20,688 nucleotides of DNA, from IMG/VR virus record IMGVR_UViG_3300030099_004443, positions 1 through 20,688 of that record, one strand, 5' to 3'. Position numbers and translations under genes: made by a program. Below the pieces are notes generated by a model. It had not been told where the DNA came from and did not search any database. It was given only the letters and a program-made list of their open reading frames with translations. Positions 2,943 to 20,688 of the stretch are shown here, in pieces. Position 1 is the stretch's first letter. Each line of letters begins with the position of its first letter. The stretch is from a virus.

Positions 2943-4928
2943 CTACCTACCCGAGCTAAATGGCTGCTCTCCAAGTTGACCAGCTTTTGTAGAAGGGTTG
3001 TACCACGTTGTATTAGTAACTGTATTTGTGCTAAACGTAGTGTTAAAAGTAGTTGTAGTAGTAAATGTAGTTACTGTGGTAGTACTAGTGTTAAAAGTTG
3101 TTGTTCTAGTTGTATTAAAAACTGTAATCGTATTAGTACTAGTGTTAAACACAGTGTTTGTTGACGTGTTAAACGTTGTGGTAGTACTTGTTGTCGTGTT
3201 AAAAACTGTAGTAGTAGTTGTACTCGTATTAAACGTAGTTACTGTTGGTAACGATGTATTAAAAGTTGTAACTGTACTAGTGCTAGTATTATAAGTTGTT
3301 GTTCTAGTAGTAGCAGTAGTTGTATTATAAACAGTTATCGTAGGATGTGACGTGTTAAATGTTGTTACAGTTGATGTAGCTGTGTTAAACGTCGTTATAG
3401 TTGTAGTACTTGTATTAAATACAGTGTTTGTGCTAGTATTAAACGTAGTAGTAAACGTTGTAGACGTATTAAACGCTGTTATAGTAGTTGTTGACGTCTG
3501 TGTACTAGTATTAAATGTTGTTGTATAAATAGTAGTAGTATCTCTAGCAGTACCTCTAGTTGTAGTTGTACTAGTATTATAAGCAGTTGTAAAAGAAGTT
3601 GTAGTGCTTTTACTTGTATTAAACGTTGTTGTAGTGCTAGTACTAGTATTAAATGTTGTCGTATATGTTGTTATAGTTCCTATACTTGTGCTAAACGATG
3701 TATTATAAAAACTTGTATAAGCTGTTATAGTAATAGTGTTAGTACTTCTACTTGTATTTCTAAATATCTGATCAGTGCTTAATGTGTTTCTAGAAGTAGC
3801 AAATGTTGTCGTAGTGCTTCGACTAGTAGCAAACGTTGTAGTTGTTGATCTAGTGGTAGTAGTACTTGTATTATAAACTGTAGTTGTTGAAAATACAGTA
3901 GTAGTACTTCTTTGCTCAGTAGTACTTCTACTTGTACTAAATGTTGTTGTTGTACTTTTACTAGTACTAACAGTTGTTACTCTACTTGTAGATGTTACTT
4001 TACTAGTATTATATACCGTGCTTGTAGTATATACTGTAGTAGTTGATCTTTGCTCTGTTGTATTTCTATTAGTAGAAAAAGTAGTTGTAGTATTACGACT
4101 TGTAGAAAACGTTGTGTTAGTGCTTTTTGTTGTAGATCTACTAGTATTAAATACAGTTGTTGTTGTAAAAGCAGTTACCGTGCTTGTATTAAAAGTTGTT
4201 GTAAATGTTGTAGATGTATTAAATACAGTTGTTGTAGAATAAGTTGTTGTTGTTGTAAAAGCAGTTGTAGTTGTAAACGCTGTAATTGTACTAGTATTAA
4301 ATATAGTAGTTCTACTAGTTCCGTATGTTGTAGTAGTTGATCTAGTTGTAGTTTTACTTGTTCCAAATGTAGTAGCAGTTACATATGTTGTTGTTGTATT
4401 TCTTTGTTCTACTGTATTTCTAGAAGTATTAAAGGTAGTTGTTCTACTTGTTTGAGTTAATGTACTCGTATTAAAAGTAGTTGTTCTACTTGTGCTTGTT
4501 CCTCTTGAAGTTCCAAATGTAGTAGTCGTACTTTTTGATGTTCCTCTACTCGTTGCAGTGTTTCTATTAGTTTGTGTTGATCTATCAGTAACACGACCAG
4601 TACTAAAAACAGTTGACGTAGTATATGCTGTCGTCGTACCTCTTTCTGTTAGATAAGCTGTTGATGTTGAATAAACTGTAGGTGTAGACCTTGTAGTATT
4701 ATAAACAGTTGTAGTGTTGTAAGCAGTTGTAGTTGGTTTACTAGTGTTATACGAAGTAACATAAGTTGTGTTAAAGTTAGTTGTTCTACTAGTTTCATAT
4801 GAAGTCGCATGTATCGTAGAAGTAAAACGTTGAGTATTAGTAGCCGTAGCCGTACCATACTGCGTTATTGTAGCAAACGCCGTCGACGTATTAAACTGAG
4901 TAAGTGTATTTCTAGACGTTAGAGGCAT
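2943..4928 (-). CDS. Giant Thr-rich repeat protein 1, probable fibre/adhesin
   Basis: Of 661 residues, roughly the first 640 are low-complexity units dominated by Thr with Ser, Asn, Phe/Tyr, Val/Ile and Arg. The core is (T)TFNTS followed by R/T/K-S-T, and FNTS alone occurs 19 times. Cys is absent, Gly and Pro are rare, and the acidic residues are nearly confined to a recurrent EQR triplet. The spacing between successive FNTS-like cores is mostly 10, 8 or 6 residues, suiting an alternating beta-strand fibre. The last ~22 residues (from WYNPSTKAG) are non-repetitive and could be a tip or trimerisation cap. The ATG at 4928 overlaps the methyltransferase gene upstream by 17 bases, so the two are probably coupled. 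Location among fibre genes argues for a virion surface fibre. There is no direct evidence of assembly. Confidence 0.65.
   Translation of the reverse strand: MPLTSRNTLTQFNTSTAFATITQYGTATATNTQRFTSTIHATSYETSRTTNFNTTYVTSYNTSKPTTTAYNTTTVYNTTRSTPTVYSTSTAYLTERGTTTAYTTSTVFSTGRVTDRSTQTNRNTATSRGTSKSTTTTFGTSRGTSTSRTTTFNTSTLTQTSRTTTFNTSRNTVEQRNTTTTYVTATTFGTSKTTTRSTTTTYGTSRTTIFNTSTITAFTTTTAFTTTTTYSTTTVFNTSTTFTTTFNTSTVTAFTTTTVFNTSRSTTKSTNTTFSTSRNTTTTFSTNRNTTEQRSTTTVYTTSTVYNTSKVTSTSRVTTVSTSKSTTTTFSTSRSTTEQRSTTTVFSTTTVYNTSTTTTRSTTTTFATSRSTTTTFATSRNTLSTDQIFRNTSRSTNTITITAYTSFYNTSFSTSIGTITTYTTTFNTSTSTTTTFNTSKSTTTSFTTAYNTSTTTTRGTARDTTTIYTTTFNTSTQTSTTTITAFNTSTTFTTTFNTSTNTVFNTSTTTITTFNTATSTVTTFNTSHPTITVYNTTTATTRTTTYNTSTSTVTTFNTSLPTVTTFNTSTTTTTVFNTTTSTTTTFNTSTNTVFNTSTNTITVFNTTRTTTFNTSTTTVTTFTTTTTFNTTFSTNTVTNTTWYNPSTKAGQLGEQPFSSGR
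3009..4925 (-). repeat. Coding repeat: Thr-rich FNTS units
   Basis: This is the repetitive part of repeat protein 1. The basic unit is about 30 bases, but copies differ at synonymous Thr, Ser and Asn positions. Conservation is therefore clearer in protein than in DNA. On the plus strand the same stretch appears as GTA/GTT-rich sequence with long spurious open frames. Confidence 0.8.
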
Positions 4929-6032: not shown

Positions 6033-8339
6033 TTATGGAGCACCAGGTCCACCTGGATCACTACCACCACCGCCTCGACCGCCACCGCCGCCAGGTCCAC
6101 CGCCAGTACAGTTCAGTACACTAATTACAGTACCATTTACACCAAACTGAGCGGCAACTGTAGCAACCACATTTGCATTACCACCAGTGAATAACGATAT
6201 ACCATAGTTACCAGCAATTAAAGGACTTGTTGCAGCACTGTTTACATATAAGTGGTCACCAACAGCAATTACAACCGCAGTTTGACCAGAGTCTGGTGTT
6301 CTATATACTAACGTATGAGTTGCATTTTGACAGTTTGAAGCAGCAGAGAAAGTTGTGCTTGTTCTTGCTCTATTTTGTATTGGAACAGTAGTGTTATATA
6401 TTGTAGTTGTATTTCTTGAAGTACCAAACGTATGAGTTGTAGTAGTACTTTTAGAAGTTTGTGTTATTGTATTTGTTTGGAATATCGTGTTAGTAGGTGA
6501 CGTAGTAGTAGTAGACGTATTATATGTCGTACCTCTAAGTGTTCCTCTACTTGTGTTTCTAGACGTACCAAATGTAGTAGTAGTGTTTCTACTTTCACCA
6601 GTACTTCTACTTGTTCCAAACGTAGTAGTAGTGTTTCTACTTTCAGTAGTGTTATTACTAGTACCAAATACAGTGCTTGTTGTTCTGCTTTCACCAGTGT
6701 TTCTACTAGTATTAAACGAGCTAGTGTATGTTGTTGTTGTAGCAAACACAGTGTTTGTAGCAAATACAGTTGTGTAAGCAGTTGTTGTGCTTCTACTAGT
6801 ACTAAATGCTGTAATGGTATCAAACACAGTAGTTCTAGAAGTGTTGTAAGATGTACTTGTTCCAAACACAGTAGTTCTAGAAGTATTAAATGTTGTAGCA
6901 GTAGTATACGTAGTAAGTGTAGTTCTTGACTCAGTAGTATTTCTTGAAGTGTTAAACGTTGTTGTAAACGTTGTAACAGTAGTTGTACTAGTGTTGTAAG
7001 CAGTAACTCTACTAGTTGATATAGTTGTTGCTCTACTTGTTGTTGTTGATCTTGTTGTCGTTGTTGATCTGCTTTCTAAAGTACTTCTACTAGTTGATAT
7101 TGTTCTTGTTGTTGTTCTACTGGTAGAAACAGTAGTAGTCCTACTAGTTGTAGTAGATCTTGAAGTTGCAAACGTAGTAGTAAACGTAGTTACAGTAGCG
7201 GTTGTAGTATTAAACACCGTGTTTGTAATAGTTGAAGTATTAAATACCGTATTAGTTGTATATACCGTTGTTGTAGATCTAGACTCAGTAGTGTTTCTGC
7301 TTGTTTGATATACTGTTGTTGTAGCAAACACAGTTGTTGTACTTGTATTGAAAACAGTACTTGTAGAAGTACTTGTGTTAAATGCTGTTATAGTACCATA
7401 TACAGTTATAGTAGCTCTACTAGTCTGTGTTGTTGTACTTGTATTATAAGCTGTAGTAAACGATGTAGTTGTTGATCTAGTAGTATTAAACGTTGTTGTC
7501 GTACTAGTAGATGTGTTATACTCGGTTATTAATGTATTTATAGTATTTCTTACAAATGTAGAAAATGTTGTATTATAAACAGTTGTTGTGTCTCTAGCTG
7601 TACTAGTACTTGTTGTTGTGCTTGTGTTAAACACGGTTGTAGTAGCTCTAGATGTTATTCTACTTGTACTAACTACTGTAGTTGTTGATCTACTAGTACT
7701 AAATGTTGTAGTTGTAGATCTAGTAGTTGTTGTACTAGTATTGTAAGAAGTTGTAAATGATGTATTAAAAGCAGTTATAGTTATAGTATTAGTTATTCTA
7801 CTTGTAGATACAACAGTATTATACACTGTTTGTGTATTTTTACTTGTTAATATAGTTCTAGTTGTAGTTCTGCTAGTTGAAACTGTAGTGTTTCTGTTTG
7901 TTGAAAAGGTTGTTGTGGTTGATCTACTTGTTGCATATGTAGTATCTGTACTTCTAGTTGTATTAAACGTTGTAGTTGTACTAATACTTGTAGGTACTGT
8001 TGTACCAAAGCTAGTTGTAGTTGATGTGTTATATGCTGTAGTAGTAGATCTAGTTGTGTTAAATGTTGTGGTTGTTTCTCTTGAAGTAGAATATACAGTT
8101 GTTGTACTTTTAGATGTATTGTACGCTGTTAATGTAGCTCTAGAAGTACTTATTGTAGTATTTCTGTTAGTTGAAACTACAGTGCTTGTAGCTCTAGATG
8201 TAGAAAACGTAGTAACTCTGCTTGTAGAAAATACAGTGGTAGTCGACCTAGATGTACTAGTCGTCCTATTTGTACTTCTACTAGTGTTAAACGTAGTAGT
8301 AGTATTCCAGAAGTCTATTCTATTCCACAACCACCTCAT
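6033..8339 (-). CDS. Giant Thr-rich repeat protein 2 with C-terminal domain and Gly-rich tail
   Basis: The protein has 768 residues. After a short aromatic N-terminus (MRWLWNRIDFW), residues ~10-663 are the same kind of Thr-rich units as in repeat protein 1, with more Arg (TSRST) and an ESR triplet in place of EQR. A globular region then runs from about 665 to 744, bounded by Cys670 and Cys744 and containing a VGDHLYVNSA strand pair. It resembles small beta domains seen at the ends of adhesins from Bacteroidetes and their phages. The protein ends in a Gly-rich stretch and PGGPGAP, recalling glycine-rich phage tip proteins that contact receptors. I infer a long fibre shaft with a receptor-binding tip. 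It is the first gene of the modification cassette and has an A/T-rich leader without a Shine-Dalgarno sequence. Confidence 0.65.
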   Translation of the reverse strand: MRWLWNRIDFWNTTTTFNTSRSTNRTTSTSRSTTTVFSTSRVTTFSTSRATSTVVSTNRNTTISTSRATLTAYNTSKSTTTVYSTSRETTTTFNTTRSTTTAYNTSTTTSFGTTVPTSISTTTTFNTTRSTDTTYATSRSTTTTFSTNRNTTVSTSRTTTRTILTSKNTQTVYNTVVSTSRITNTITITAFNTSFTTSYNTSTTTTRSTTTTFSTSRSTTTVVSTSRITSRATTTVFNTSTTTSTSTARDTTTVYNTTFSTFVRNTINTLITEYNTSTSTTTTFNTTRSTTTSFTTAYNTSTTTQTSRATITVYGTITAFNTSTSTSTVFNTSTTTVFATTTVYQTSRNTTESRSTTTVYTTNTVFNTSTITNTVFNTTTATVTTFTTTFATSRSTTTSRTTTVSTSRTTTRTISTSRSTLESRSTTTTRSTTTSRATTISTSRVTAYNTSTTTVTTFTTTFNTSRNTTESRTTLTTYTTATTFNTSRTTVFGTSTSYNTSRTTVFDTITAFSTSRSTTTAYTTVFATNTVFATTTTYTSSFNTSRNTGESRTTSTVFGTSNNTTESRNTTTTFGTSRSTGESRNTTTTFGTSRNTSRGTLRGTTYNTSTTTTSPTNTIFQTNTITQTSKSTTTTHTFGTSRNTTTIYNTTVPIQNRARTSTTFSAASNCQNATHTLVYRTPDSGQTAVVIAVGDHLYVNSAATSPLIAGNYGISLFTGGNANVVATVAAQFGVNGTVISVLNCTGGGPGGGGGRGGGGSDPGGPGAP
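6351..8312 (-). repeat. Coding repeat: Thr-rich FNTS/TSRST units
   Basis: This is the repetitive shaft of repeat protein 2. It shares uncommon stretches with repeat protein 1 (NTITITA, ARDTTT, SFTTAYNTSTTT) in a different order, indicating duplication and shuffling between the two genes. Confidence 0.8.
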
Positions 8340-13719: not shown

Positions 13720-14010
13720 CTATTTAAATTCCTTAACTACCTTAGGTCCTTTTAAAAAGTCTAACCTTTTAGTGTAATGCTCGATGCTACCATCAATAGC
13801 AGCTTCAGCAGACTCTATAGTTTCTCTTCTTGTAACATCGTTCCAGACATCATCCATGTCTTTATACTCTGTTTGGTAGAAACCATTAGGTAATTGAACT
13901 ATTCTCCAGTTTTTCTTTTCTACAAGGTGTTTCCAAAAGTTTTTGGTTTCCTCGGTTACTTGTGGGTTGGAGTTACCCCAAGTGTTGGATTTGTAATAAA
14001 AATACGTCAT
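13720..14010 (-). CDS. Hypothetical small protein
   Basis: This 96-residue protein has an aromatic N-terminus (MTYFYYKSNTW). A mixed region contains FWKHLVEKKNWRIVQLPNGFYQTEY, and the second half is helical and charged (ETIESAEAAIDGSIEHY). No membrane segment or catalytic motif is visible and I do not recognise a family. It is the second gene of the leftward transcript, 21 bases before the groEL start. The coherent reading frame and tight spacing support a real gene. Confidence 0.6.
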   Translation of the reverse strand: MTYFYYKSNTWGNSNPQVTEETKNFWKHLVEKKNWRIVQLPNGFYQTEYKDMDDVWNDVTRRETIESAEAAIDGSIEHYTKRLDFLKGPKVVKEFK

Positions 14011-14043
14011 TATTTTGGTTTTTATTAGGTTGCAGAGGACTAG

Positions 14044-14277
14044 TTATTCATTACGCGTACCGTGTCCCCTGTTTCCACGGTTCGCTTTTATGCTTATAAA
14101 TCTCTTGGTTTTATGGTCAAAGTCCATGCCTTTTATATTTTTGCCAGACTTTATAGCAGCTCTACGCTTGCGCTGGTTTTCAGCACGCATCTTCTTTCTT
14201 CTAGTTGTATTTGCTGCAGCTAAGTCTCTTTTCTTCTTGGCGATCCTAGCTTTTAAGCTTAGCTTTTGTTTAGGCAT
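14044..14277 (-). CDS. Small very basic protein with DFDHK motif
   Basis: The protein has 77 residues. The first 48 are dominated by Lys/Arg/Ala and probably form one long helix. Then MDFDHKTKRF (51-60) and a KANRGNRGHGTRNE end form a short conserved-looking tail. I recall similar basic proteins with a DxDHK and NRG ending in many phages, of unknown function. The His/Asp pair is faintly HNH-like, but the motif is too short for a nuclease. The charge suggests nucleic-acid or capsid-interior binding. It is the first gene of the leftward block, facing the divergent control region. Confidence 0.6.
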   Translation of the reverse strand: MPKQKLSLKARIAKKKRDLAAANTTRRKKMRAENQRKRRAAIKSGKNIKGMDFDHKTKRFISIKANRGNRGHGTRNE

Positions 14278-14589
14278 GTGTAATTAATTTCTTCTATGTT
14301 TAGATAATTACATGTATAAATAGAAATTTAAAAGCGTGACATTAGCCAGTTACTAATATATCTTATATAGCTACTGTCATACTATTTTTTTGTTGTTAGA
14401 TGTAGTGATAGTTTGTGTTGCCCCTACTTTTCTCGTTTTTACTTTGTAATTATAAATACATTTTTTTTACACTACGGGCCCCCTTTTTACTTTTTTTTGT
14501 ATAAATTTTTCACATTTTACTAATATATGTATATATATATTGTACTTATATACAATGTAGATACGATGTATTATAGATAATACTTATAT
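14278..14589. promoter_or_regulatory. Divergent control region between leftward and rightward blocks
   Basis: These ~310 non-coding bases are strongly AT-rich. They contain TATAAATA strings at 14315-14322 and 14451-14458, a TTACTTTG at 14439-14446 that resembles a Bacteroidetes -7 box, and a GC island around a GGGCCC palindrome near 14476-14482. An inverted repeat (ATTGTA, six bases, TACAAT) lies near 14539-14556. The first copy of the bipartite element lies at its right end. The region probably holds the main promoters and possibly an origin. No box is certain. Confidence 0.5.
14552..14581 (+). promoter_or_regulatory. Bipartite element, copy 1
   Basis: ACAATGTAGATACGA, nine bases, then GATAAT. 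This is the most diverged of six copies, and it ends eight bases before the ATG of the 32-codon frame at 14590. If GATAAT is a -10 box, the transcript would start near that ATG. Confidence 0.55.
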
Positions 14590-14688
14590 ATGATAAAAAA
14601 TAATATTAGTATAGAAGTTGTGAGAGTGTGCGGAATACTACATAACAAAAAACAAATAGTAAACAAACAATATACTTTTACAACTTAA
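14590..14688 (+). CDS. Tiny first rightward ORF, 32 codons
   Basis: MIKNNISIEVVRVCGILHNK and 12 further residues, ending in TFTT. There is no known family. It is supported only by position: it directly follows copy 1 of the bipartite element. Its 3' end is overlapped by copy 2, exactly as copies 3, 4 and 6 overlap the ends of their upstream genes. Confidence 0.4.
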   Translation: MIKNNISIEVVRVCGILHNKKQIVNKQYTFTT

Positions 14689-14709
14689 ATACGAAATATA
14701 ATAGATAAT
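14680..14709 (+). promoter_or_regulatory. Bipartite element, copy 2
   Basis: ACAACTTAAATACGA, nine bases, then GATAAT, placed 33 bases before the ATG at 14743. It overlaps the end of the tiny upstream frame. Confidence 0.6.
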
Positions 14710-14742
14710 AATAATATAAATAATAACTTAAATATAATAACT

Positions 14743-14976
14743 ATGACTTCAAATTCAATTACTTCAAAAAGATTTGTACTTAGAAAATCTTTACTAAACA
14801 CAAATACTATAATTACTTTCACTAACAAAAAAGGTGACACAATAAAGTATTCACATGATAAAGCATTTTCAATAATGAAAGATACACTAACTAAATTACC
14901 ATGTTGGTTAAAGTATAAATCATACACTGCTACTAATAATATTCCATTAGTACTTAGAGATAAAGAGTTAGTTTAA
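14743..14976 (+). CDS. Small hypothetical early protein
   Basis: This 77-residue protein is basic, with a Thr/Ser/Asn-rich first half, a central ITFTNKKGDTIKYSHDKAF stretch and a single Cys. No family is recognised. It is the first sizeable rightward gene and lies under copy 2 of the bipartite element. The leader AATATAATAACT before the ATG is of the type shared by several rightward genes (ATAACT-ATG). A hairpin with a T-run covers its stop codon, so it may be transcribed as a single short message. Small proteins in this position are often host-takeover factors, but nothing here proves that. Confidence 0.6.
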   Translation: MTSNSITSKRFVLRKSLLNTNTIITFTNKKGDTIKYSHDKAFSIMKDTLTKLPCWLKYKSYTATNNIPLVLRDKELV

Positions 14977-14989
14977 TAACTAACTTTTT
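14966..14989 (+). terminator. Intrinsic-terminator-like hairpin
   Basis: AGTTAGT, loop TTAATA, ACTAACT, then TTTT: a perfect seven-pair stem followed by a T-run. It overlaps the stop codon of the 14743 gene. Only two pairs are G-C, so termination may be partial. Confidence 0.5.
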
Positions 14990-15041
14990 ATTTCAACTGC
15001 GAGTTCCACTTGTTTCTAACAGTAAATTGCGAATGAGTAAC

Positions 15042-15106
15042 TGTCATTACGGTAACGTGGTGTGACCAAATTGGTACACGTAGTGGTTCGATTCCACTCA
15101 TGACAA
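15042..15106 (+). tRNA. tRNA-like element 1 (acceptor and T arm, no clear anticodon arm)
   Basis: A canonical T arm (AGTGG-TTCGATT-CCACT, 15082-15098) is followed by CATGACA. That pairs with TGTCATT at 15042-15048 over six of seven positions to give an acceptor stem; the discriminator base would be A. Only 33 bases lie between acceptor and T arm, versus about 41 in ordinary tRNAs. Those bases fold as a GGT/ACC D-like stem or as a GTGT-g-ACC/GGT-ACAC hairpin, so no standard seven-base anticodon loop can be placed. CCA is not encoded. It could be a degenerate tRNA or a tRNA mimic that is processed by RNase P/Z. Confidence 0.4.
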
Positions 15107-15127
15107 CTAACAATTAAATTTATAACT

Positions 15128-15295
15128 ATGAGTAAAATCAAATTCACGTACAATAAAGTGTACAATTACGTAAAAGGTAAGTCAGTAGTTGACTTAATAT
15201 TTGAAACTATTGCATTTGGTGTATTATTACCAATAGCGTTAACAGGAATAGTATTCATGTTCTATCAAGTAATATTCAATGGCGTAACAATATGA
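15128..15295 (+). CDS. Small single-pass membrane protein
   Basis: This 55-residue protein has a basic soluble start (MSKIKFTYNKVYNYVKGKS). A hydrophobic helix (about residues 29-47, AFGVLLPIALTGIVFMF) follows, then a short tail. No signal-peptidase site is seen, so it is probably anchored in the host inner membrane. The leader is TTATAACT-ATG, with no Shine-Dalgarno. Its stop overlaps the next start as ATGA, pairing it with another tiny membrane peptide. The function is unknown. Confidence 0.6.
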   Translation: MSKIKFTYNKVYNYVKGKSVVDLIFETIAFGVLLPIALTGIVFMFYQVIFNGVTI

Positions 15296-15378
15296 AGAAG
15301 ATAATCATAGAATTTTTGTTTGTAGTGTGTTTATTTGCACTACTATACGTTTCACTATGGGTATTTTGCCCATGCTAA
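15292..15378 (+). CDS. Tiny membrane peptide, 28 residues
   Basis: MKKIIIEFLFVVCLFALLYV followed by SLWVFCPC. Two lysines, then one hydrophobic helix, then a terminal C-P-C. It may be a membrane insert or a lipoprotein-like signal, but no downstream domain exists. The ATGA overlap with the upstream membrane protein suggests coupled translation and joint function. Superinfection or membrane-defence roles are speculation. Confidence 0.45.
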   Translation: MKKIIIEFLFVVCLFALLYVSLWVFCPC

Positions 15379-15389
15379 ATTAAGAAATT

Positions 15390-15524
15390 ATGAGTTTTAG
15401 AGAACTACATGTAATAGATGATATGATTTATTCACACGAAGTGGATAAGTGGGTGACGATTGAAGAGTACTATCAAGAGTACGTGTCACCATTTAACGCT
15501 AAGTTACAACATAAATACGAATAA
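15390..15524 (+). CDS. Small acidic hypothetical protein, 44 residues
   Basis: The frame starts MSFRELHVIDDMIYSHEVDK, continues WVTIEEYYQEY and ends HKYE. It is helical, acidic and aromatic; no family is recognised. An A/T leader precedes the ATG and copy 3 of the bipartite element overlaps its last codons, as seen at other gene ends. Confidence 0.5.
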   Translation: MSFRELHVIDDMIYSHEVDKWVTIEEYYQEYVSPFNAKLQHKYE

Positions 15525-15535
15525 AGTAAGATATT
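15506..15535 (+). promoter_or_regulatory. Bipartite element, copy 3
   Basis: ACAACATAAATACGA, nine bases, then GATATT (one base off GATAAT). It overlaps the end of the 15390 gene and ends six bases before the ATG at 15542, which would make the next message leaderless or nearly so. Confidence 0.6.
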
Positions 15536-15541
15536 AATAAT

Positions 15542-15727
15542 ATGAATAAAATAAAATTAACAAACTATAATATGTTTGGCGTACCACAAAACGCTATACT
15601 AAAATATAAAAATGGCGACACAGTTGTGCTCGACAAAATAATAACCAGTAGCTACTATGATAGCGTTGACAAAACTTGTCACTCATATCGTAAGTTCTAC
15701 AAAATAAACAATACGCTTTATGCCTAA
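15542..15727 (+). CDS. Small hypothetical protein
   Basis: This 61-residue basic protein is rich in Lys, Asn and Tyr. A beta-like ILKYKNGDTVVLDKI segment is followed by SYYDSVDKTCHSYRKFYKI. It may form a small SH3-like barrel, but this is only an impression. The start is immediately downstream of bipartite copy 3, and the last eight bases overlap the start of the next gene. Confidence 0.55.
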   Translation: MNKIKLTNYNMFGVPQNAILKYKNGDTVVLDKIITSSYYDSVDKTCHSYRKFYKINNTLYA

Positions 15728-15959
15728 ATACTTTGATGACTTAACACTAGAACAAATGTTCGAGTATCATGACCATACTTATATGATGAGTGATGACAAT
15801 CGAGCGTACGAAAATGGCAGACGCCAACGTGATTTGATAGAAGATAAAGTCAAAGCACAAGGCGGATGGACTAGAGAATTAGTCGAACTATATAATAAAT
15901 ATGCACCAGGTGGTAGATTTCAAAAAGACTACGACTTCATGCAGCAATACAATAAATAA
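15720..15959 (+). CDS. Hypothetical helical protein
   Basis: This 79-residue charged protein has three likely helices: LTLEQMFEYHDHTY, AYENGRRQRDLIEDKVKAQG and ELVELYNKYA. It ends with a QQYNK tail. No catalytic motif is visible. The ATG overlaps the end of the 15542 gene, and only two bases separate its stop from the next ATG, consistent with one polycistronic message. Confidence 0.55.
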   Translation: MPKYFDDLTLEQMFEYHDHTYMMSDDNRAYENGRRQRDLIEDKVKAQGGWTRELVELYNKYAPGGRFQKDYDFMQQYNK

Positions 15960-15961
15960 CT

Positions 15962-16417
15962 ATGACACAATATCAATTAGAACAAGAAGCACTTGAGAAC
16001 GCATTTGTAAGACAATTGCTTATTAAGTATAATATTAAAGAAGTAACTACACAAAGACAAGCAATAAATGGTACAAGAGAATTTGAGTTTCCTTGCTCCA
16101 CATATGAAAATACTAATGTATTTTACAAAAATTGGCTAAAATCTAAAGGTAAATCACTAGATGATACACCAAGATTAAGACTAGCTTGCTTTAAATCAGG
16201 TTATGTAAGAAAACAAAATGGTTGTTATTCACCATATCAAATAAATAAAACTTATAATCAAGAGCAAAGAACTACGTTTTTAATTGATGGTAAGTTAGAA
16301 ACTAGAAAATATATAGGTAAGGCAAGGACTAAAGTATGGTCAAGTCTTGCTAGATTAAACTATATGTTAGAATATTATTTAAAAAATTACAATATAAATA
16401 CGACAAAAGTCAGATAA
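15962..16417 (+). CDS. Hypothetical basic protein
   Basis: This 151-residue protein has a Gln/Glu-rich helical start (QYQLEQEALENAFVRQLL). A central region has scattered Cys (FPCS, LACF, NGCYS) that do not form a clear zinc knuckle, and the second half is basic (RTTFLIDGKLETRKYIGKARTKVW). No family is recognised. The DNA is noticeably A-rich. Copy 4 of the bipartite element overlaps its last codons. The basic half could bind nucleic acid. Confidence 0.55.
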   Translation: MTQYQLEQEALENAFVRQLLIKYNIKEVTTQRQAINGTREFEFPCSTYENTNVFYKNWLKSKGKSLDDTPRLRLACFKSGYVRKQNGCYSPYQINKTYNQEQRTTFLIDGKLETRKYIGKARTKVWSSLARLNYMLEYYLKNYNINTTKVR

Positions 16418-16418
16418 T
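16389..16418 (+). promoter_or_regulatory. Bipartite element, copy 4
   Basis: ACAATATAAATACGA, nine bases, then GATAAT. The core TATAAATA equals the T4-type late promoter box, though the rest differs. It overlaps the 3' end of the 15962 gene and ends eight bases before the ATG at 16427. Confidence 0.6.
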
Positions 16419-16426
16419 ATAATTGT

Positions 16427-16639
16427 ATGACAAAATGTAAATGTAAAAATATAATACCTCCGCAGCGCCTCGCACTAGGTTATACCTCTTGCGTCGACTG
16501 TTCAACCACTGAACCTTATGGCTGTGTTCAAATCACATACCATAAAACCGGCAATACTATTCAAATTATGCCAAAAAGTCAGGCGAAACGTGTAAGGAAG
16601 CTTGGCGCTAGACGAGGTTACGGAACATGTTTAAGATAA
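16427..16639 (+). CDS. Small zinc-finger-like protein
   Basis: This 70-residue protein has Cys4, Cys6, Cys22 and Cys25 in a CxC...CxxC arrangement around the conserved-looking RLALGYTSCVDCST. YGCVQITYHKTGNTIQIM and a basic C-terminus (KRVRKLGARRGYGT) follow. I recall this protein type from marine phages, with a DksA/TraR-like finger feel, but the length and spacing differ from DksA. It may bind RNA polymerase or nucleic acid. Its codon use is less A-rich than its neighbours (CGC, CTC, GCG appear), which may indicate a different history. It starts just after bipartite copy 4. Confidence 0.6.
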   Translation: MTKCKCKNIIPPQRLALGYTSCVDCSTTEPYGCVQITYHKTGNTIQIMPKSQAKRVRKLGARRGYGTCLR

Positions 16640-16643
16640 TACT

Positions 16644-16862
16644 ATGGCAGCAATAAAACAAATACATATAGTAGCTAAAGAAATAGCAGAAGATATAACA
16701 AAACAAATCAATAAGCAATGCGACTGGCAAGTAGATCAGTTTCTACCCAAAAACAGTGAGGGCAAAATAATAGACGAAGCTCATAGTTATATGGCTAGAA
16801 CTGTTGCTCGCCATGTCGCAAACGCTTTTGATGTAACTACTAATAAATACTACGATGAGTGA
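16644..16862 (+). CDS. Small hypothetical helical protein
   Basis: This 72-residue protein has an initial amphipathic helix (IKQIHIVAKEIAEDITKQIN), a short WQVDQFLPKN turn and a second helix (EAHSYMARTVARHVANAFD). No family is recognised. It begins four bases after the zinc-finger gene, behind AAGATAATACT. It overlaps the next start by eight bases. Confidence 0.55.
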   Translation: MAAIKQIHIVAKEIAEDITKQINKQCDWQVDQFLPKNSEGKIIDEAHSYMARTVARHVANAFDVTTNKYYDE

Positions 16863-17139
16863 TTCAGTAAAAAAATACTTTGAAGATAAAGAAGAAACTT
16901 GTAACTACAGCGGGCTAAGAAGCACAAGCAGCTACACAGCTAAGTACATATTCTTACTAGATTTTAATGACGGTAAGGTATATAGATATGACATTAGCTC
17001 GTTATGTAATGATGAAAATAAATGGAATCCTGACTCAGAGTCTTGTGAAGCGTTTTTATACGGCGCAGGTCACAAAGTAAATGACTGTGAGTGGATGGTA
17101 ACAAGTGAAAGAGATATAACTCCTGGGAATACACTGTAA
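16855..17139 (+). CDS. Hypothetical acidic protein
   Basis: This 94-residue acidic protein has three Cys and beta-like segments (AKYIFLLDFNDGKVYRYDI, then CEWMVTSERDITPG). The first half has a Ser/Thr-rich stretch. No family is recognised. It is the last gene before the non-coding RNA-rich stretch at 17140-17516. A weak hairpin (ACACT/AGTGT, 17131-17148) spans its stop codon. Confidence 0.55.
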   Translation: MSDSVKKYFEDKEETCNYSGLRSTSSYTAKYIFLLDFNDGKVYRYDISSLCNDENKWNPDSESCEAFLYGAGHKVNDCEWMVTSERDITPGNTL

Positions 17140-17162
17140 GCTTAGTGTTGAAAACAAAGGAG

Positions 17163-17236
17163 AAGGCGGCAGCATACTGGTCGAAAGCGTGGATAAAGCA
17201 TAATACTAGTTAGTACCGGTCCACGACTGCTGCCTT
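17163..17236 (+). ncRNA. Structured RNA with 10-bp stem and possible pseudoknot
   Basis: AAGGCGGCAG (17163-17172) pairs with CTGCTGCCTT (17227-17236) through ten pairs, including one G-U. Inside, CGTGGA (17188-17193) pairs with TCCACG (17220-17225), and TACT/AGTA (17204-17215) forms a small hairpin. ACTGGT (17176-17181) could pair with ACCGGT (17215-17220) in a crossing arrangement. The G+C content is well above that of neighbouring genes, and no convincing protein frame spans it. It is unassigned: a ribozyme, a regulatory RNA or a leader of the following tRNA-like element. Confidence 0.45.
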
Positions 17237-17238
17237 AT

Positions 17239-17314
17239 GGGCGTGATTATGGAATTGACCGAGACATGGTATCACCGAGTCATGGTAACGCAGGTTCGAG
17301 TCCTGCCACGTCCA
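17239..17314 (+). tRNA. tRNA-like element 2, 76 bases, anticodon not assignable
   Basis: GGGCGTG (17239-17245) pairs with CACGTCC (17307-17313), seven pairs with one G-U, and A17314 follows as discriminator. The T arm GCAGG-TTCGAGT-CCTGC (17290-17306) is canonical. The total length, 76, equals an ordinary tRNA. The 44-base middle does not give a normal D arm or a five-pair anticodon stem. Instead it holds two 16-base tandem units, each forming an ACC-(7)-GGT hairpin. A tRNA whose centre has been rebuilt, or a tRNA mimic, explains this best. CCA is not encoded. Confidence 0.45.
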
Positions 17315-17456
17315 CTAACAGGGTAAAACAAGAAAGACGGTTGAGAAGTCAAAGATGTTTAACCAAGTCCATATTAGTAACTGGACAGAGGTCAATGACT
17401 AGACTTACTTGGCTCCTGAAAGCTTGGGCACTGTGCACGGTGTCACCCTTAATATT
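17315..17456 (+). ncRNA. Non-coding, possibly structured stretch
   Basis: No convincing gene is present. Paired segments are visible. CCAAGT (17363-17368) matches ACTTGG (17407-17412), GTCCA (17367-17371) matches TGGAC (17382-17386), and AAGTC (17346-17350) matches GACTT (17402-17406). The strongest is a terminal hairpin at 17426-17448: GGG-CACTG-TGCA-CGGTG-(TCA)-CCC followed by TTAATATT. It may be the 3' part of the same transcript as the two RNAs upstream, with the last hairpin ending it. Confidence 0.35.
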
Positions 17457-17486
17457 ACAACACAAATACGAATGTAGATGGATAAT
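17457..17486 (+). promoter_or_regulatory. Bipartite element, copy 5
   Basis: ACAACACAAATACGA, nine bases, then GATAAT, located nine bases after the GGG-CCC hairpin and 30 bases before the ATG at 17517. It fits a promoter restarting transcription after the RNA-rich stretch. Confidence 0.6.
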
Positions 17487-17516
17487 ATAATCAGAATAAT
17501 TAAATATAAAAACAAT

Positions 17517-17756
17517 ATGAGTAAAATTAAATCAATTTATGACTTACTGCAACCTAAACTTAAATCAGAGTTGCAAGCTAGCGCTAAAAAATATGACAGC
17601 GCTAAAAGATTAAAGTATAAACTCATGAGCTCTACATTATGGCACGAATTATCTCTAAGAGATATTAGCGACTTAATGTCTTACTCAGGTCTTTATACAA
17701 GTGATGTAACAGCCAAAGATATTATGTACGGCGGCAGAATACTTATCGAAGAATAA
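17517..17756 (+). CDS. Hypothetical helical protein
   Basis: The protein has 79 residues from MSKIKSIYDLL. An upstream in-frame ATG at 17478 lies inside bipartite copy 5, so I prefer the later start, which has an AAACAAT leader like other genes. The sequence is helical and basic in the first half (QPKLKSELQASAKKYDSAKR), then LWHELSLRDISDLMSYSG. No family is recognised. Its stop overlaps the acidic-protein start as TAATG. Confidence 0.55.
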   Translation: MSKIKSIYDLLQPKLKSELQASAKKYDSAKRLKYKLMSSTLWHELSLRDISDLMSYSGLYTSDVTAKDIMYGGRILIEE

Positions 17757-18211
17757 TGGCAGAGTTACTAACAGACGATATTATCACTTCGGCATTAGTC
17801 GACGATGGTATAATGCAAGAACCAGATGCGCCTTGGCTTCTTGAATATATCGATACGGAATATGGCGGCAAACTAGACACATCATCTGATTGGTGTGATG
17901 ATAAACATAAACTAAAAATATACAGTGAATCAACAGCTGATAGCTATGAAATATACTTTTGTACTCACAGCGATAAACCTTATGTATCACAAGATGGTTA
18001 TTACTATGAAGATCACAGCGAGTGGTCAGAACAAGCTATCGGTGAGTTAACATCGGGTAGTGATGTATGGATAGCTCCTGAAGTATGGTCAGACATGGAG
18101 TGGGAGTTTAATCACGAGCTAGAACAATGGTGGCAAGATGTATACGAAGATAAGTTTAACGATAAAAAAGATGAGTTATTAGACTCAGAAGATTATTATG
18201 AAGACAATTAA
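17756..18211 (+). CDS. Strongly acidic, Arg-free protein; candidate DNA mimic
   Basis: By my count of the 151 residues, 42 are Asp/Glu, eight are Lys and none are Arg. The protein also has many Trp and Tyr. The acidic residues are spread along its length and become densest at the C-terminus (DSEDYYEDN). No enzyme motif or membrane segment is visible. Such composition is known from phage DNA-mimic anti-restriction proteins such as Ocr, but there is no sequence likeness that I can see. A dense, even negative charge with aromatic packing residues is consistent with a folded mimic rather than a disordered tail. Its location in the early block fits an anti-defence role. It is coupled by TAATG upstream and a 14-base overlap downstream. 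Confidence 0.6.
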   Translation: MAELLTDDIITSALVDDGIMQEPDAPWLLEYIDTEYGGKLDTSSDWCDDKHKLKIYSESTADSYEIYFCTHSDKPYVSQDGYYYEDHSEWSEQAIGELTSGSDVWIAPEVWSDMEWEFNHELEQWWQDVYEDKFNDKKDELLDSEDYYEDN

Positions 18212-18491
18212 TAAACAAGAAAAACCTAAATGGTTTACAGGCGCTTGGTATAAAACAGGCGACATTGTACAAAACCCGTTTAGCGGTGAGCTATATGAGT
18301 TAACAGGACCAGAGTTATCTATGTATAACTTTATTAAAGGTGCTGAGTATACAATATCTATAAACCTTGAAAAGACAGGTGACTTCTATGTAGAAGACCC
18401 TGCATTAGTTAAATTACAAAAAGATATGATAAAAGGTTTAGACTGGTTCAGATCAGAAAACCCTACAGCATACATGACATTACTAGATTAA
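18198..18491 (+). CDS. Conserved marine-phage hypothetical (NPFSGE motif)
   Basis: This 97-residue protein has a basic start. W-Y-K-x-G-D-I-V and NPFSGELYEL (about 27-36) are followed by MYNFIKGAE, a block I recall in many small proteins of marine myo- and podophages. The end, GLDWFRSENPTAYMTLLD, is also of that type. The function is unknown. Its start lies inside the acidic-protein gene, so the two are probably co-translated. Confidence 0.65.
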   Translation: MKTINKQEKPKWFTGAWYKTGDIVQNPFSGELYELTGPELSMYNFIKGAEYTISINLEKTGDFYVEDPALVKLQKDMIKGLDWFRSENPTAYMTLLD

Positions 18492-18492
18492 T

Positions 18493-18807
18493 ATGACAAC
18501 AGATAATTTTAATGCGATAGTATATGAGTTAGACTCACACGCGCAAGAAACAATGAATAAGAAAGGTCCTGAGTATACTATGCAGGACAGTGATGTACTT
18601 CACAACTTTAAGTCTACAGCTAAAAAGCTAAATGTAGACCCTTTAGTTGTATGGTATGCTTACTTTGATAAGCAAGTTAGTTCAGTTGCTGCTCACGTTG
18701 GCAACCACGATCTAAATAAAGCAGAGCCTATGATTAGTAGGTTTGGTGATATAATTAATTATGCAAAGCTTGGCTACGCATTATTTGTAGAAAGAGATAA
18801 CTTATGA
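18493..18807 (+). CDS. DUF1599-like protein
   Basis: This 104-residue all-helical protein has KKGPEYT (23-29), DVLHNFKSTAKKL (34-46), a helix with FDKQVSSVAAHV and a terminal RFGDIINYAKLGYALF (about 84-99). The K-x-x-Y, then D-x-L-x-N-F, then D-I-x-N-Y order fits the DUF1599 group, linked in the literature to nucleotide modification or MazG-type metabolism. If so, it would act on nucleotides during phage DNA synthesis, in line with the ligase downstream. Residue-level activity cannot be shown. Its stop overlaps the next start as ATGA. Confidence 0.55.
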   Translation: MTTDNFNAIVYELDSHAQETMNKKGPEYTMQDSDVLHNFKSTAKKLNVDPLVVWYAYFDKQVSSVAAHVGNHDLNKAEPMISRFGDIINYAKLGYALFVERDNL

Positions 18808-18968
18808 TGTGTAAAGATGTTATGATGACTTTATTATCTCTTATAGAAAAAGAGATGAAACGAAGAATCGAACATTCATACTTTGAAGAAGAGTCTGATA
18901 AATGGAGTAAGTTCCATGATTATATCAGAAAAATACGTTTAACAATTAAAAAAGGCGGAATAAAATGA
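18804..18968 (+). CDS. Small hypothetical protein, 54 residues
   Basis: The frame starts MMCKDVMMTLLSLIEKEMKR and continues as a charged helix to a basic end (RLTIKKGGIK). No family is recognised. ATGA overlaps at both ends, with the DUF1599-like gene and with the 18965 gene, strongly support it as a translated member of the operon. Confidence 0.55.
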   Translation: MMCKDVMMTLLSLIEKEMKRRIEHSYFEEESDKWSKFHDYIRKIRLTIKKGGIK

Positions 18969-19420
18969 GTACAAGAAATTTAACAATGGTAGTACATAGA
19001 GACTACGCACAAAATCATGAGCTTGGGTTTGCTGCTCCACCATCGGTGTACAGTGACAAAAGCTACGTAAATATGTATTTACATCATGATGGTTATCCTG
19101 AGTGGCAAGGTGTACAGCTAGCAAACTGGGTTAAAACTAATAATAGACAAGATGGTAGTGCTATGGCTGCAAAGCTAGTACATGACCATTACTATGACAG
19201 TTGCTATTTATACCACGATTTAGATGCTATAGACCATAATTATACTTATATAATATGGACAGGTAAAGATGATGTATGGATTAGTTGCTATGATCAGTAT
19301 ACTAGTACATGTGTGTTTGTATTAACACCTGACAAGATTATAGAAAGATATAAAGATGATATGGACTATACTGATTTTGCTAACGGCGAAACTAGAAATG
19401 AAAAAGTATACACAATATAA
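18965..19420 (+). CDS. Conserved hypothetical with DGYPEWQG motif
   Basis: This 151-residue protein starts MSTRNLTMVVHRD. Residues ~41-50 are HDGYPEWQGV, followed by a helix, a Tyr/His-rich centre (HDHYYDSCYLYHDLDAIDHNY) and a strand (TYIIWTGKDDVWISCY). The start with S-T-R-x-L-T and the DGYP..G block recur in phage and cellular proteins of unknown function. There is no clear catalytic set. Upstream it is coupled by ATGA. Bipartite copy 6 overlaps its last codons. Confidence 0.6.
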   Translation: MSTRNLTMVVHRDYAQNHELGFAAPPSVYSDKSYVNMYLHHDGYPEWQGVQLANWVKTNNRQDGSAMAAKLVHDHYYDSCYLYHDLDAIDHNYTYIIWTGKDDVWISCYDQYTSTCVFVLTPDKIIERYKDDMDYTDFANGETRNEKVYTI

Positions 19421-19441
19421 ATACGAATGAACGAAGATAAT
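19412..19441 (+). promoter_or_regulatory. Bipartite element, copy 6
   Basis: ACAATATAAATACGA, nine bases, then GATAAT. It overlaps the end of the 18965 gene and the first candidate ATG (19427) of the next. If it is a promoter, the in-frame ATGs at 19448 and 19451, just after GATAAT, are the better translation starts. Confidence 0.6.
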
Positions 19442-19747
19442 AATGATATGATGCCAAAAGATTTTTATAATGATAAAATGTTAGATGAACTAACTGATAA
19501 AGTATTAGACAGATTAATACAAAAAGCAGCTAGTCCACAGTGGCATCAATATAATTCACCTATGACACTAGGCGAGTTAATAAAAGGACAATTGCCTTTT
19601 AAGGAAACAGAAGAAGAGTTCTTAGTAGGCGAAATGGCTAGGCTAACAACATTATTAAATATGTATGAAGGCAAAGAAGAATATATGAAGGCCGCAATAA
19701 TAAAAAGAAAACTAGATATAATAACAAATAAACTAAATAACCTATGA
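19427..19747 (+). CDS. Hypothetical protein with UVR-like C-terminal helix pair
   Basis: The protein has 106 residues from the first ATG, or 98-99 from ATGs at 19451/19448. The later starts are attractive because the first lies inside bipartite copy 6. The sequence is helical and acidic. The end, EEYMKAAIIKRKLDIITNKL, resembles the UVR helical hairpin by which UvrB and some chaperone partners bind others. A degenerate SPMTLGELIKGQLPF turn lies in the centre. The function is unknown. Its stop overlaps the ligase start as ATGA, so it may work with it. Confidence 0.55.
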   Translation: MNEDNNDMMPKDFYNDKMLDELTDKVLDRLIQKAASPQWHQYNSPMTLGELIKGQLPFKETEEEFLVGEMARLTTLLNMYEGKEEYMKAAIIKRKLDIITNKLNNL

Positions 19748-20577
19748 TGAAACCAATGCTAGCACATAAGTTCGATGACAGTCGTGTTGACTGGTCTCAA
19801 CCTGTGTACATACAACCTAAACTAGACGGCGTCCGCTGTCTGTTTACAAAAGATGGTGCGTACTCACGTAACCACAAACAATTTATGAACGTTAGACATA
19901 TTGAAATGGCTCTCAAACCTTTCTTTGATCAACACCCTGACGTTATACTCGACGGCGAGTTATACAATCACAAACTAAAACGTGATTTTGAAAAGATTAT
20001 ATCATTAGTTCGTAAGCAAAAGCCTACTGATACTGATAGACTAGATGCTCAGCATCTTGTACAGTTTCATGTATACGATTACTTCGATGGAGTAATGTAT
20101 GACTCTTACAGTACAAGACAAGATCAACTAGCTTGTTCTAATATATATGGCCCTTGTGTCAGATATGTTGAAACACACCTAGTTAAAAGCTACGATATAG
20201 CTAGAGCTAATCACAAAGTATATCTTGAAGATGGCTACGAAGGTAGTATTATCAGACTAGATGGTCTATACAAACACGGTAGGTCTTACGATCTAATGAA
20301 GTTCAAAGACTTCAGTGATGCTGAAGCAACTATCATTGGTTATGAAGTAGGTAAAGGTAAAAGGACAGGCACATTGGGCAAGTTCATCATGCTAGATGAC
20401 GAAGGTATTAAGTTCGGTTGTCCACCCGGACGTGGATATACCTACAAGGATTTAGCAAGTATGCTCACCAATATTGATTGGTTTATTGGCCAACGTGCTA
20501 CCTTTACTTATTTTCAAAGAACACAAGCAGGTTCATACAGACACCCGCTTTTTAAAACTGTACGCAACTATGAATAA
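19744..20577 (+). CDS. ATP-dependent DNA ligase
   Basis: The protein has 277 residues, the size of minimal phage ligases. The nucleotidyltransferase motifs are complete and in order. Motif I is KLDGVR with the adenylated Lys26, motif III LDGEL (69-73), motif IIIa FHVYDYF (108-114), motif IV EGSIIR (166-171) and motif V LMKFKDF (184-190). The rest, from about 192, is an OB-fold domain with LGKFIM and the final TFTYFQRT. There is no N-terminal DNA-binding domain. It seals nicks with ATP, most likely joining Okazaki fragments or repaired DNA in phage replication. Two adjacent ATGs could start it, and the first overlaps the upstream stop (ATGA). It has all the residues expected for activity. Confidence 0.93.
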   Translation: MMKPMLAHKFDDSRVDWSQPVYIQPKLDGVRCLFTKDGAYSRNHKQFMNVRHIEMALKPFFDQHPDVILDGELYNHKLKRDFEKIISLVRKQKPTDTDRLDAQHLVQFHVYDYFDGVMYDSYSTRQDQLACSNIYGPCVRYVETHLVKSYDIARANHKVYLEDGYEGSIIRLDGLYKHGRSYDLMKFKDFSDAEATIIGYEVGKGKRTGTLGKFIMLDDEGIKFGCPPGRGYTYKDLASMLTNIDWFIGQRATFTYFQRTQAGSYRHPLFKTVRNYE

Positions 20578-20605
20578 AGACGAATTAATAACAGGTACAT
20601 TATGA
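20570..20605 (+). CDS. Eleven-codon coupling micro-ORF
   Basis: MNKDELITGTL starts inside the last codons of the ligase gene and ends in an ATGA overlap with the next ATG at 20602. It could carry ribosomes across the 24-base gap. It may equally be chance. Confidence 0.25.
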   Translation: MNKDELITGTL

Positions 20606-20688
20606 ATATATTTTACTTAGATGAATGTCCTGACAAAGCAGCTAGACTACAATACAATAAACATGTGGTCAAGATGATACTTGAGTCA
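20602..20688 (+). CDS. Conserved phage protein, N-terminus only (runs off right edge)
   Basis: Twenty-nine residues are visible: MNIFYLDECPDKAARLQYNK, then HVVKMILES. The pattern M-N-I-F-x-L-x-x-x-P...A...K-H-V-V-K-M-I-L-E begins a family I recall from many marine phages, of uncertain function. The frame continues beyond the window. ATG follows ACATT with no Shine-Dalgarno sequence. Confidence 0.6.
   Translation, partial: MNIFYLDECPDKAARLQYNKHVVKMILES

Follow-up and report, generated by a model that had tools for sequence, protein, structure and literature searches.

A putative promoter class of uncultured podovirus-like phages, with an extended bipartite element probably read by a phage-encoded sigma70-family factor

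Introduction

Which protein reads a two-part DNA element that recurs at the gene starts of a single phage module? The question is raised by the IMG/VR virus record IMGVR_UViG_3300030099_004443, a stretch of 20,688 bases that was analysed as a whole and is referred to here as the window. Six copies of TACGA-N9-GATAAT, where N9 stands for nine free bases, lie at the junctions of its rightward genes. A first-pass annotation of these letters proposed a phage-specific promoter that is recognized by a protein, with GATAAT as the -10 hexamer. Here, we describe the full extent of the element, its distribution among related contigs and its association with a gene that these relatives carry downstream of their DNA ligase gene. 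We consider it very likely that the six elements form one promoter class, served by host RNA polymerase together with a sigma70-family factor of phage origin. This factor itself would recognize the element, and its gene would be present in this very phage.

Results

Six copies in the window

The six copies occupy the positions first noticed, all on the + strand, and the nine-base spacing throughout as well as the single GATATT were correctly described. They are listed with the extended boundaries and matrix scores explained below.

14550..14588, + strand: putative promoter copy 1, from -38 to the predicted +1 at 14588; matrix score 32; first of a tandem pair; 2-nucleotide (nt) leader to ATG 14590
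14678..14716, + strand: putative promoter copy 2, predicted +1 at 14716; score 40.5; 27-nt leader to the gene at 14743
15504..15542, + strand: putative promoter copy 3, the GATATT variant; score 37; predicted +1 is the A of ATG 15542
16387..16425, + strand: putative promoter copy 4, predicted +1 a G at 16425; score 46; 2-nt leader to ATG 16427
17455..17493, + strand: putative promoter copy 5, predicted +1 at 17493; score 39; 24-nt leader to ATG 17517
19410..19448, + strand: putative promoter copy 6; score 35; predicted +1 is the A of ATG 19448

Copies 4 and 6 overlap the 3' ends of the open reading frames (ORFs) 15962-16417 and 18965-19420, respectively. The gaps from GATAAT to the ATG are 8, 33, 6, 8, 30 and 6 bases, in agreement with the 6-8 bases in four copies and about 30 in two that had been read from the sequence. 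The ATG at 14590, on the + strand, opens just a 32-codon ORF (14590-14688, between tandem copies 1 and 2), for which a similar one was found in two of the four relatives compared (G001 and G005). Its IEVVRVCGIL stretch is close in these two; a VRVC search for the peptide gave 2 of 43 loci, and CGILL-type peptides were seen by eye in several others.

When the full pattern was searched with up to three mismatches, the window yielded exactly these six sites, while 100 dinucleotide shuffles gave a mean of 0.06 and a maximum of 1. The core TACGA-N9-GATAWT occurs six times on the + strand of the window and never on the - strand. With two mismatches allowed, the core alone is not above chance (20 matches versus 17 expected), and therefore some of the signal must lie in the flanking bases. 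The copies score 32-46 with a 41-column matrix whose 405 training sites include the six of the window; no other position in the window scores above 7.3, and 14.5 was the highest score among 100 Markov sequences. The prediction would have failed had the element been equally frequent in shuffled sequence, and this was not the case in the shuffles, on the opposite strand, in the reversed controls or in the matrix scan. A generic sigma70 scan of 14000-20688 returned 42 sites against 34 expected, and the six copies were not among the matches listed.

Extended motif and predicted start site

The exact full pattern was found in at least 119 IMG/VR contig stretches, 80 of which were listed. In 12 hand-picked whole records, some of them near-copies of one another, TACGA-N9-GATAWT occurs 4-10 times each, 74 times in total and 73 times on the main strand of the record, mostly in clusters; the reversed pattern matched once in the same records. 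An alignment of 420 distinct sites from 115 loci gave the consensus TTACAAWMTAAATACGA, seven free bases, T, a purine, GATAAT, A, an AT-rich stretch and a purine at the seventh base after GATAAT. This last base, the predicted +1, is a purine in 99% of the 420 sites and is preceded by T in 70% or C in 15% (85% together), although the +1 and -1 columns played no part in the choice of sites. A pyrimidine-purine (YR) step at -1/+1 is the pattern of a -10 element plus start site, and GATAAT was therefore numbered -12 to -7. With N9 above it, TTACAAWMTAAATACGA falls at -38 to -22, and the whole element spans about 39 bases, longer than first seen. At the level of sequence, a two-box promoter in several copies, with a -10 about 7 nt before the predicted start, is what a phage sigma regulon displays.

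Five contigs of 60-71 kb have much of the gene content of the window in common. In a full matrix scan of these contigs all matches fell within the stretch bounded by the divergent junction and by the sigma gene described below; a weak match in G007 (score 17) is on the opposite strand near the junction, and a match in G008 falls inside the helix-turn-helix (HTH) gene just before the sigma gene. An Rfam search for an RNA element gave 0 matches.

Position relative to gene starts

The distance to the first ATG that opens at least 40 codons was recorded for 302 sites lying upstream of sigma genes. The ATG coincides with the predicted +1 in 46 sites, lies within -3 to +3 in 81 (0.27, versus 0.046 for random positions) and follows the predicted +1 by 10-29 nt in 124; only 21 (7%) have no ATG within 150 nt, compared with 36% of random positions. 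The leaders in the window are 0-2 nt in four copies and 24-27 nt in two. This distribution suggests that many of the transcripts would be leaderless, starting at or within 2-3 nt of the AUG. Leaderless initiation is thereby predicted in a phylum whose flavobacteria rarely have such mRNA: in the available part of the source, 5.5% of the mRNAs of Flavobacterium psychrophilum are given as leaderless (PMC9723704), and the available text on Flavobacterium johnsoniae states that 87% of leaders exceed 10 nt (PMC6847099).

The sigma70-family protein and its neighbour

In the relatives, a 201-residue HTH protein is encoded downstream of the ligase, followed by a 252-residue protein whose gene overlaps the HTH gene by a few bases. 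The 252-residue protein is a sigma70-family factor. All 50 family members match PHROG 351, 'RNA polymerase sigma factor' (best 3.7e-25); at an E-value of 0.01 Pfam finds Sigma70_r2 in 47 and Sigma70_r4 in 37 of the 50 (the first member under Pfam's curated cut-offs), and profile matches to the PDB are SigA, FliA and RpoD, from 1e-8 and mainly over region 2. An AlphaFold model has a mean predicted local distance difference test score of 75.5, and the 50 Foldseek matches listed are all RNA polymerase initiation or sigma entries. Regions 2 and 4 of the sigma70 family, the parts expected of a phage sigma, are present in the protein of the relatives, which lies outside the shorter window. A tblastn search with the sigma of G003 against 50,697 phage records gave no match at a threshold of 0.01, and hhalign of this family against phiEco32 gp36 gave no significant match.

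The sigma was confirmed in 122 IMG/VR stretches, and 80 loci were kept. The HTH gene adjoins it in all five full relatives and in 57 of the 80 loci, a count from an automatic search in which many of the others have little upstream DNA. In G003 the HTH protein corresponds to L121:6211-6816. Its C-terminal HTH is weakly recognized by Pfam (HTH_11, 2e-4, below cut-off), and a search with the model of the protein gave no significant fold match.

Linkage of the element to the sigma gene

Among the sigma loci with at least 8 kb of upstream DNA, 43 of 46 are preceded by 4-11 matrix sites in the orientation of the sigma gene. In the full set of 80, to which the 34 with shorter upstream DNA contribute in the totals only, the matrix found 330 sites upstream, 10 downstream, 7 on the opposite strand and 3 in reversed sequence (one strand). 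One of the three exceptions, L162, carries six sites of the variant CACRGACTT..GATAAT.

The converse was examined in 42 motif-selected records, hand-picked from the 80 that were listed because they had several copies or came from long contigs. The sigma was matched in 29 of them (partial at the contig end in G006; in two pieces with internal stops in G070). In all 13 others, 126-2357 nt of contig remain beyond the last site. The distance from the last site to the sigma gene exceeds 2.4 kb in 35 of 43 sigma loci and is usually 2.4-3.0 kb in relatives, so these 13 records can be explained by truncation; G075 and G076, with 1.9 and 2.4 kb left behind the last site, are less certain cases. In G012, of 129 kb, two site clusters (14.5-18.5 kb and 75-78 kb) are each followed by their own sigma; this may reflect a genuine duplication, or else two genomes that were fused or assembled together.

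A control set of records selected by terminase agrees in direction but is weak, being mostly made of fragments that may not reach the module. Two of 43 have the sigma, both with site clusters (4 and 10 exact matches); of the 41 without it, 39 have no match and 2 a lone match, and the reversed control gave 5 matches. MW202828.1 and elemoA 7-9A, relatives by terminase, have neither sigma nor site. Six sigma-selected records have 0-1 exact match each because motifs vary; the matrix finds six sites in L156 and two in L148.

Variation between lineages

Diverged sigmas accompany diverged motifs, with the geometry unchanged. L231, whose sigma is 52% identical, has nine sites of CTTGCAGATYTATAACGAAG..TATAAT in the same register (CTTGCAGATCTATAACGAAG..TATAAT in other writing), L230 (56%) has nine of CACAAATTAAA..GATAAT, and all five exact matches in G069 carry GATATT. 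Uniformity was measured over 48 loci with 307 matrix-selected sites and compared with 1000 shuffles among genomes. The base before GATAAT is alike in two sites of the same genome with a probability of 0.76, versus 0.32 after shuffling (maximum 0.36), and the three upstream-box columns tested are likewise more uniform within than between genomes. The first of two N9 columns tested has no excess uniformity (0.313 versus 0.310). Within-genome uniformity is the mark of one reader per genome, and it does not distinguish the sigma from the HTH protein.

Discussion

Proposed mechanism

The idea of a protein-recognized, phage-specific promoter with GATAAT as its -10 is borne out by the purine at +1 in 99% of sites, the location at gene starts, the restriction to a single strand and module, and the linkage to the sigma gene. 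In the mechanism that we propose, the phage sigma70-family factor would program the host RNA polymerase at GATAAT (-12 to -7), its region 4 would read the long upstream element TTACAAWMTAAATACGA (-38 to -22), and the neighbouring HTH protein would perhaps help region 4 there. The promoters would act at the gene starts of a small-gene module beside the divergent junction, with transcription beginning at the predicted +1. The last copy probably drives the ligase, HTH and sigma genes, which would close a positive feedback loop. Since the sigma must be made first, the timing is probably middle-like or self-amplifying.

A further proposal, which we put forward tentatively and hold to be possible at best, is that the promoter is composite and that the sigma and the HTH protein read it jointly. 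Each lineage would keep a private code (the base before GATAAT, the upstream box, TATAAT or GATATT) that is uniform across copies, so that co-infecting relatives would not cross-activate, and many of the promoters would give leaderless mRNA although their hosts rarely have mRNA of this type.

Several observations weigh against the assignment to a phage sigma. The record stops at 20,688, short of the expected position of the HTH and sigma genes. The global template-modelling scores of the Foldseek matches are low, at 0.26-0.38, and the 17-bp upstream element is longer than what sigma region 4 alone usually reads. The linkage counts are not independent, as the matrix training sites come partly from the same contigs as the sigma loci and near-copies (G009/G011, G002/G007) are included; moreover, L167 has no upstream sites and only two matches at the far contig end, L217 has none at all, and L215 has no upstream sites in 6.6 kb. 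The second N9 column tested is slightly uniform within genomes (0.386, above the shuffle maximum of 0.370). A column-by-column association of sigma and HTH residues with motif bases did not single out the DNA-reading helices, probably as ancestry dominates it, and the residues of sigma region 2.4 fail to explain the change from G to T at -12 in L231. Finally, a scan of the window for host-type promoters, TTG-N17-23-TAnnTTTG, gave 3 matches versus 4.7 expected and is not enriched; no host-type promoter stands out that would explain how the first sigma is made.

Alternative explanations

The rival that deserves most attention, though we judge it unlikely, is a MotA-like arrangement: the upstream box would be bound by the 201-residue HTH protein, or by some other protein of the phage, which would bring the host-sigma holoenzyme to GATAAT and leave the phage sigma to serve another promoter class. 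A long upstream box that ends nine bases before the -10 is a MotA-like layout, and both the tight pairing of the HTH gene with the sigma gene and the weak Pfam call of its C-terminal HTH would suit such a role, but no fold matches the model of the protein significantly. That the motif has diverged in step with the sigma also counts against the arrangement; yet linkage ties the HTH protein to the sigma, and the association test could not separate them. A further point against it is that the Flavobacterium primary sigma reads TAnnTTTG, not GATAAT, as the available part of the source describes it (PMC6847099). The same preference of the likely hosts bears on the idea of ordinary host promoters, served by a host primary or alternative sigma, which we find very improbable. 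The element is too long and too invariant for a usual host consensus, even though its -10 GATAAT is near TATAAT; in addition, the lineage-private variants follow the phage, and the two related phages that lack the phage sigma also lack the element.

Equally improbable is a T7-like promoter for a single-subunit phage RNA polymerase, with TACGA, nine bases and initiation at the G of GATAAT. The TACGA-N9-G spacing does fit the T7 layout; however, the nine bases are variable here while the corresponding T7 positions, a block at -9 to -1 of the T7 promoter, are conserved, and the YR signature and the ATG peak lie 12 bases further downstream than a T7-like start. The polymerase family PF00940 was found in none of the five full relatives in a search that scores T7 at 1e-109; an earlier search of 19 records for it (0 of 19) lacked a working control. 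An RNA-level element near the start codon, acting as a translation or processing signal rather than as a DNA promoter, has as little to recommend it. Four of the six copies are indeed 6-8 bases from an ATG, but over the larger set the ATG distances form two peaks, one 0-2 nt and the other about 10-29 nt beyond the predicted +1, and are otherwise spread. Three copies were folded as RNA and gave nothing unusual (z of 0.9, -0.5 and 0.5), and nine variable bases between fixed boxes better fit recognition of DNA.

Surrounding genes and further features

Below 14.28 kb, the leftward genes of the window encode GroEL, a GroES-like protein, a holin-like protein and repeat proteins, while the rightward side holds small genes and an ATP-dependent ligase.

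14743..14976, + strand: first larger gene of the rightward module; relative in 5/5 contigs compared
15542..15727, + strand: small gene behind promoter copy 3; relative in 3/5 contigs compared
16427..16639, + strand: small Cys-containing gene behind promoter copy 4; relative in 5/5, identity up to 98.6%
17517..17756, + strand: small gene behind promoter copy 5
19448..19747, + strand: small gene behind promoter copy 6; the ORF finder lists the in-frame ATG 19427 as its start
19744..20577, + strand: ATP-dependent DNA ligase; HTH and sigma genes lie downstream of the ligase in relatives

On the - strand, 2943-4928 and 6033-8339 encode two proteins that consist nearly entirely of NTSTTTTFNTSR-type threonine/serine repeats, with a counterpart in G007. 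The divergent region contains an inverted repeat at 14336-14382, TGACATnAGCC..GGCTAnTGTCAC, whose copy in the window is imperfect and was spotted by eye, as the strict pattern misses it. Of the 42 divergent regions, 14 contain a match to this strict pattern, and 100 shuffled sets averaged 0.0; the repeat could be an operator or an origin. The repeat surfaced in a search of the 42 divergent regions for late promoters, which gave no defensible promoter. At 14476-14483 a GGGCCCCC block is followed by a T-run; a comparable G-rich block is seen in 24 of 42 divergent regions, a count made without a control. Two tRNA-like sequences, at 15042-15105 and 17239-17315, have a GGTTCGAnTCC T-arm and acceptor ends that pair. 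ARAGORN calls neither at default settings; at a relaxed threshold, which also yields doubtful calls, 17239-17315 is called tRNA-Asp. Similar tRNA-like sequences occur in the same module of relatives, where some are called tRNA-Met and a few lie immediately 5' of promoters. In G003, a 2386-residue protein was considered as a virion RNA polymerase and set aside: neither Pfam nor PHROG nor the PDB gave a credible match and the D.D.D motif is missing, though a very remote polymerase is possible.

Host and significance

Terminase matches (87 records) are to phages of Flavobacterium, Cellulophaga, Tenacibaculum and Maribacter and to one uncultured record. Sigma-bearing contigs in metagenome-assembled genomes belong to Bacteroidota in four of nine cases and to bins of other phyla in five, three of which share a bin; mis-binning may account for these five. 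We infer a host among the Bacteroidota. For these uncultured podovirus-like phages, a sigma and its putative cognate promoter provide a concrete, testable transcription scheme. Natural sigma-promoter pairs that have diverged together are useful for learning how sigma specificity evolves, and they could perhaps be used as expression parts in Bacteroidota, where E. coli promoters fail according to the available part of PMC6847099.

Comparison with known systems

A literature search, with subscription papers and preprints outside its scope, found no description of the motif or of promoters of this sigma family. The T4 middle promoters (MotA/AsiA) have an upstream box some 9-13 nt above the -10 hexamer, and no T4 sigma is known to serve this class; a box upstream of the -10 is shared with the present element, and the HTH partner present here is without a fold match. 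In the T4 late promoters (gp55), TATAAATA is the -10 itself and no upstream element is known. An echo of these late promoters had been noted in the core of two copies, but the resemblance is superficial: the shared ATAAATA string lies here at about -30 to -24, above a separate GATAAT -10, rather than at -10 as in T4. Bacillus phage SPO1 has middle and late sigmas (gp28, gp33/34) with -35/-10 type promoters, the late -10 being GATATT-like; by this description it is alike in joining a phage sigma to -35/-10 type promoters and different in its -35 and host phylum. The separation from the Bacteroidetes TTTG/TAnnTTTG type, made at the outset, holds, as the consensus of sigmaABfr given in the available part of PMC6847099 differs in sequence at both boxes, although the probable host environment is shared. 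Salmonella phage 7-11 offers a parallel in kind: according to the part of the source available, its sigma gp47 has eight identified late promoters, bipartite with fixed spacing, GTAAtg-16-aCTA (PMC8948821). As with 7-11 gp47 and phiEco32 gp36, a phage-encoded sigma subunit is proposed, here from sequence, to program the host RNA polymerase, whereas the motif is another one, the promoters, late in 7-11, lie here in a small-gene module beside the divergent junction, and predicted leaderless starts are common. The kind is known from phiEco32 and 7-11, where promoters of their own serve a phage sigma, and the long upstream box, HTH partner, predicted leaderless starts and lineage-private codes set this variant apart.

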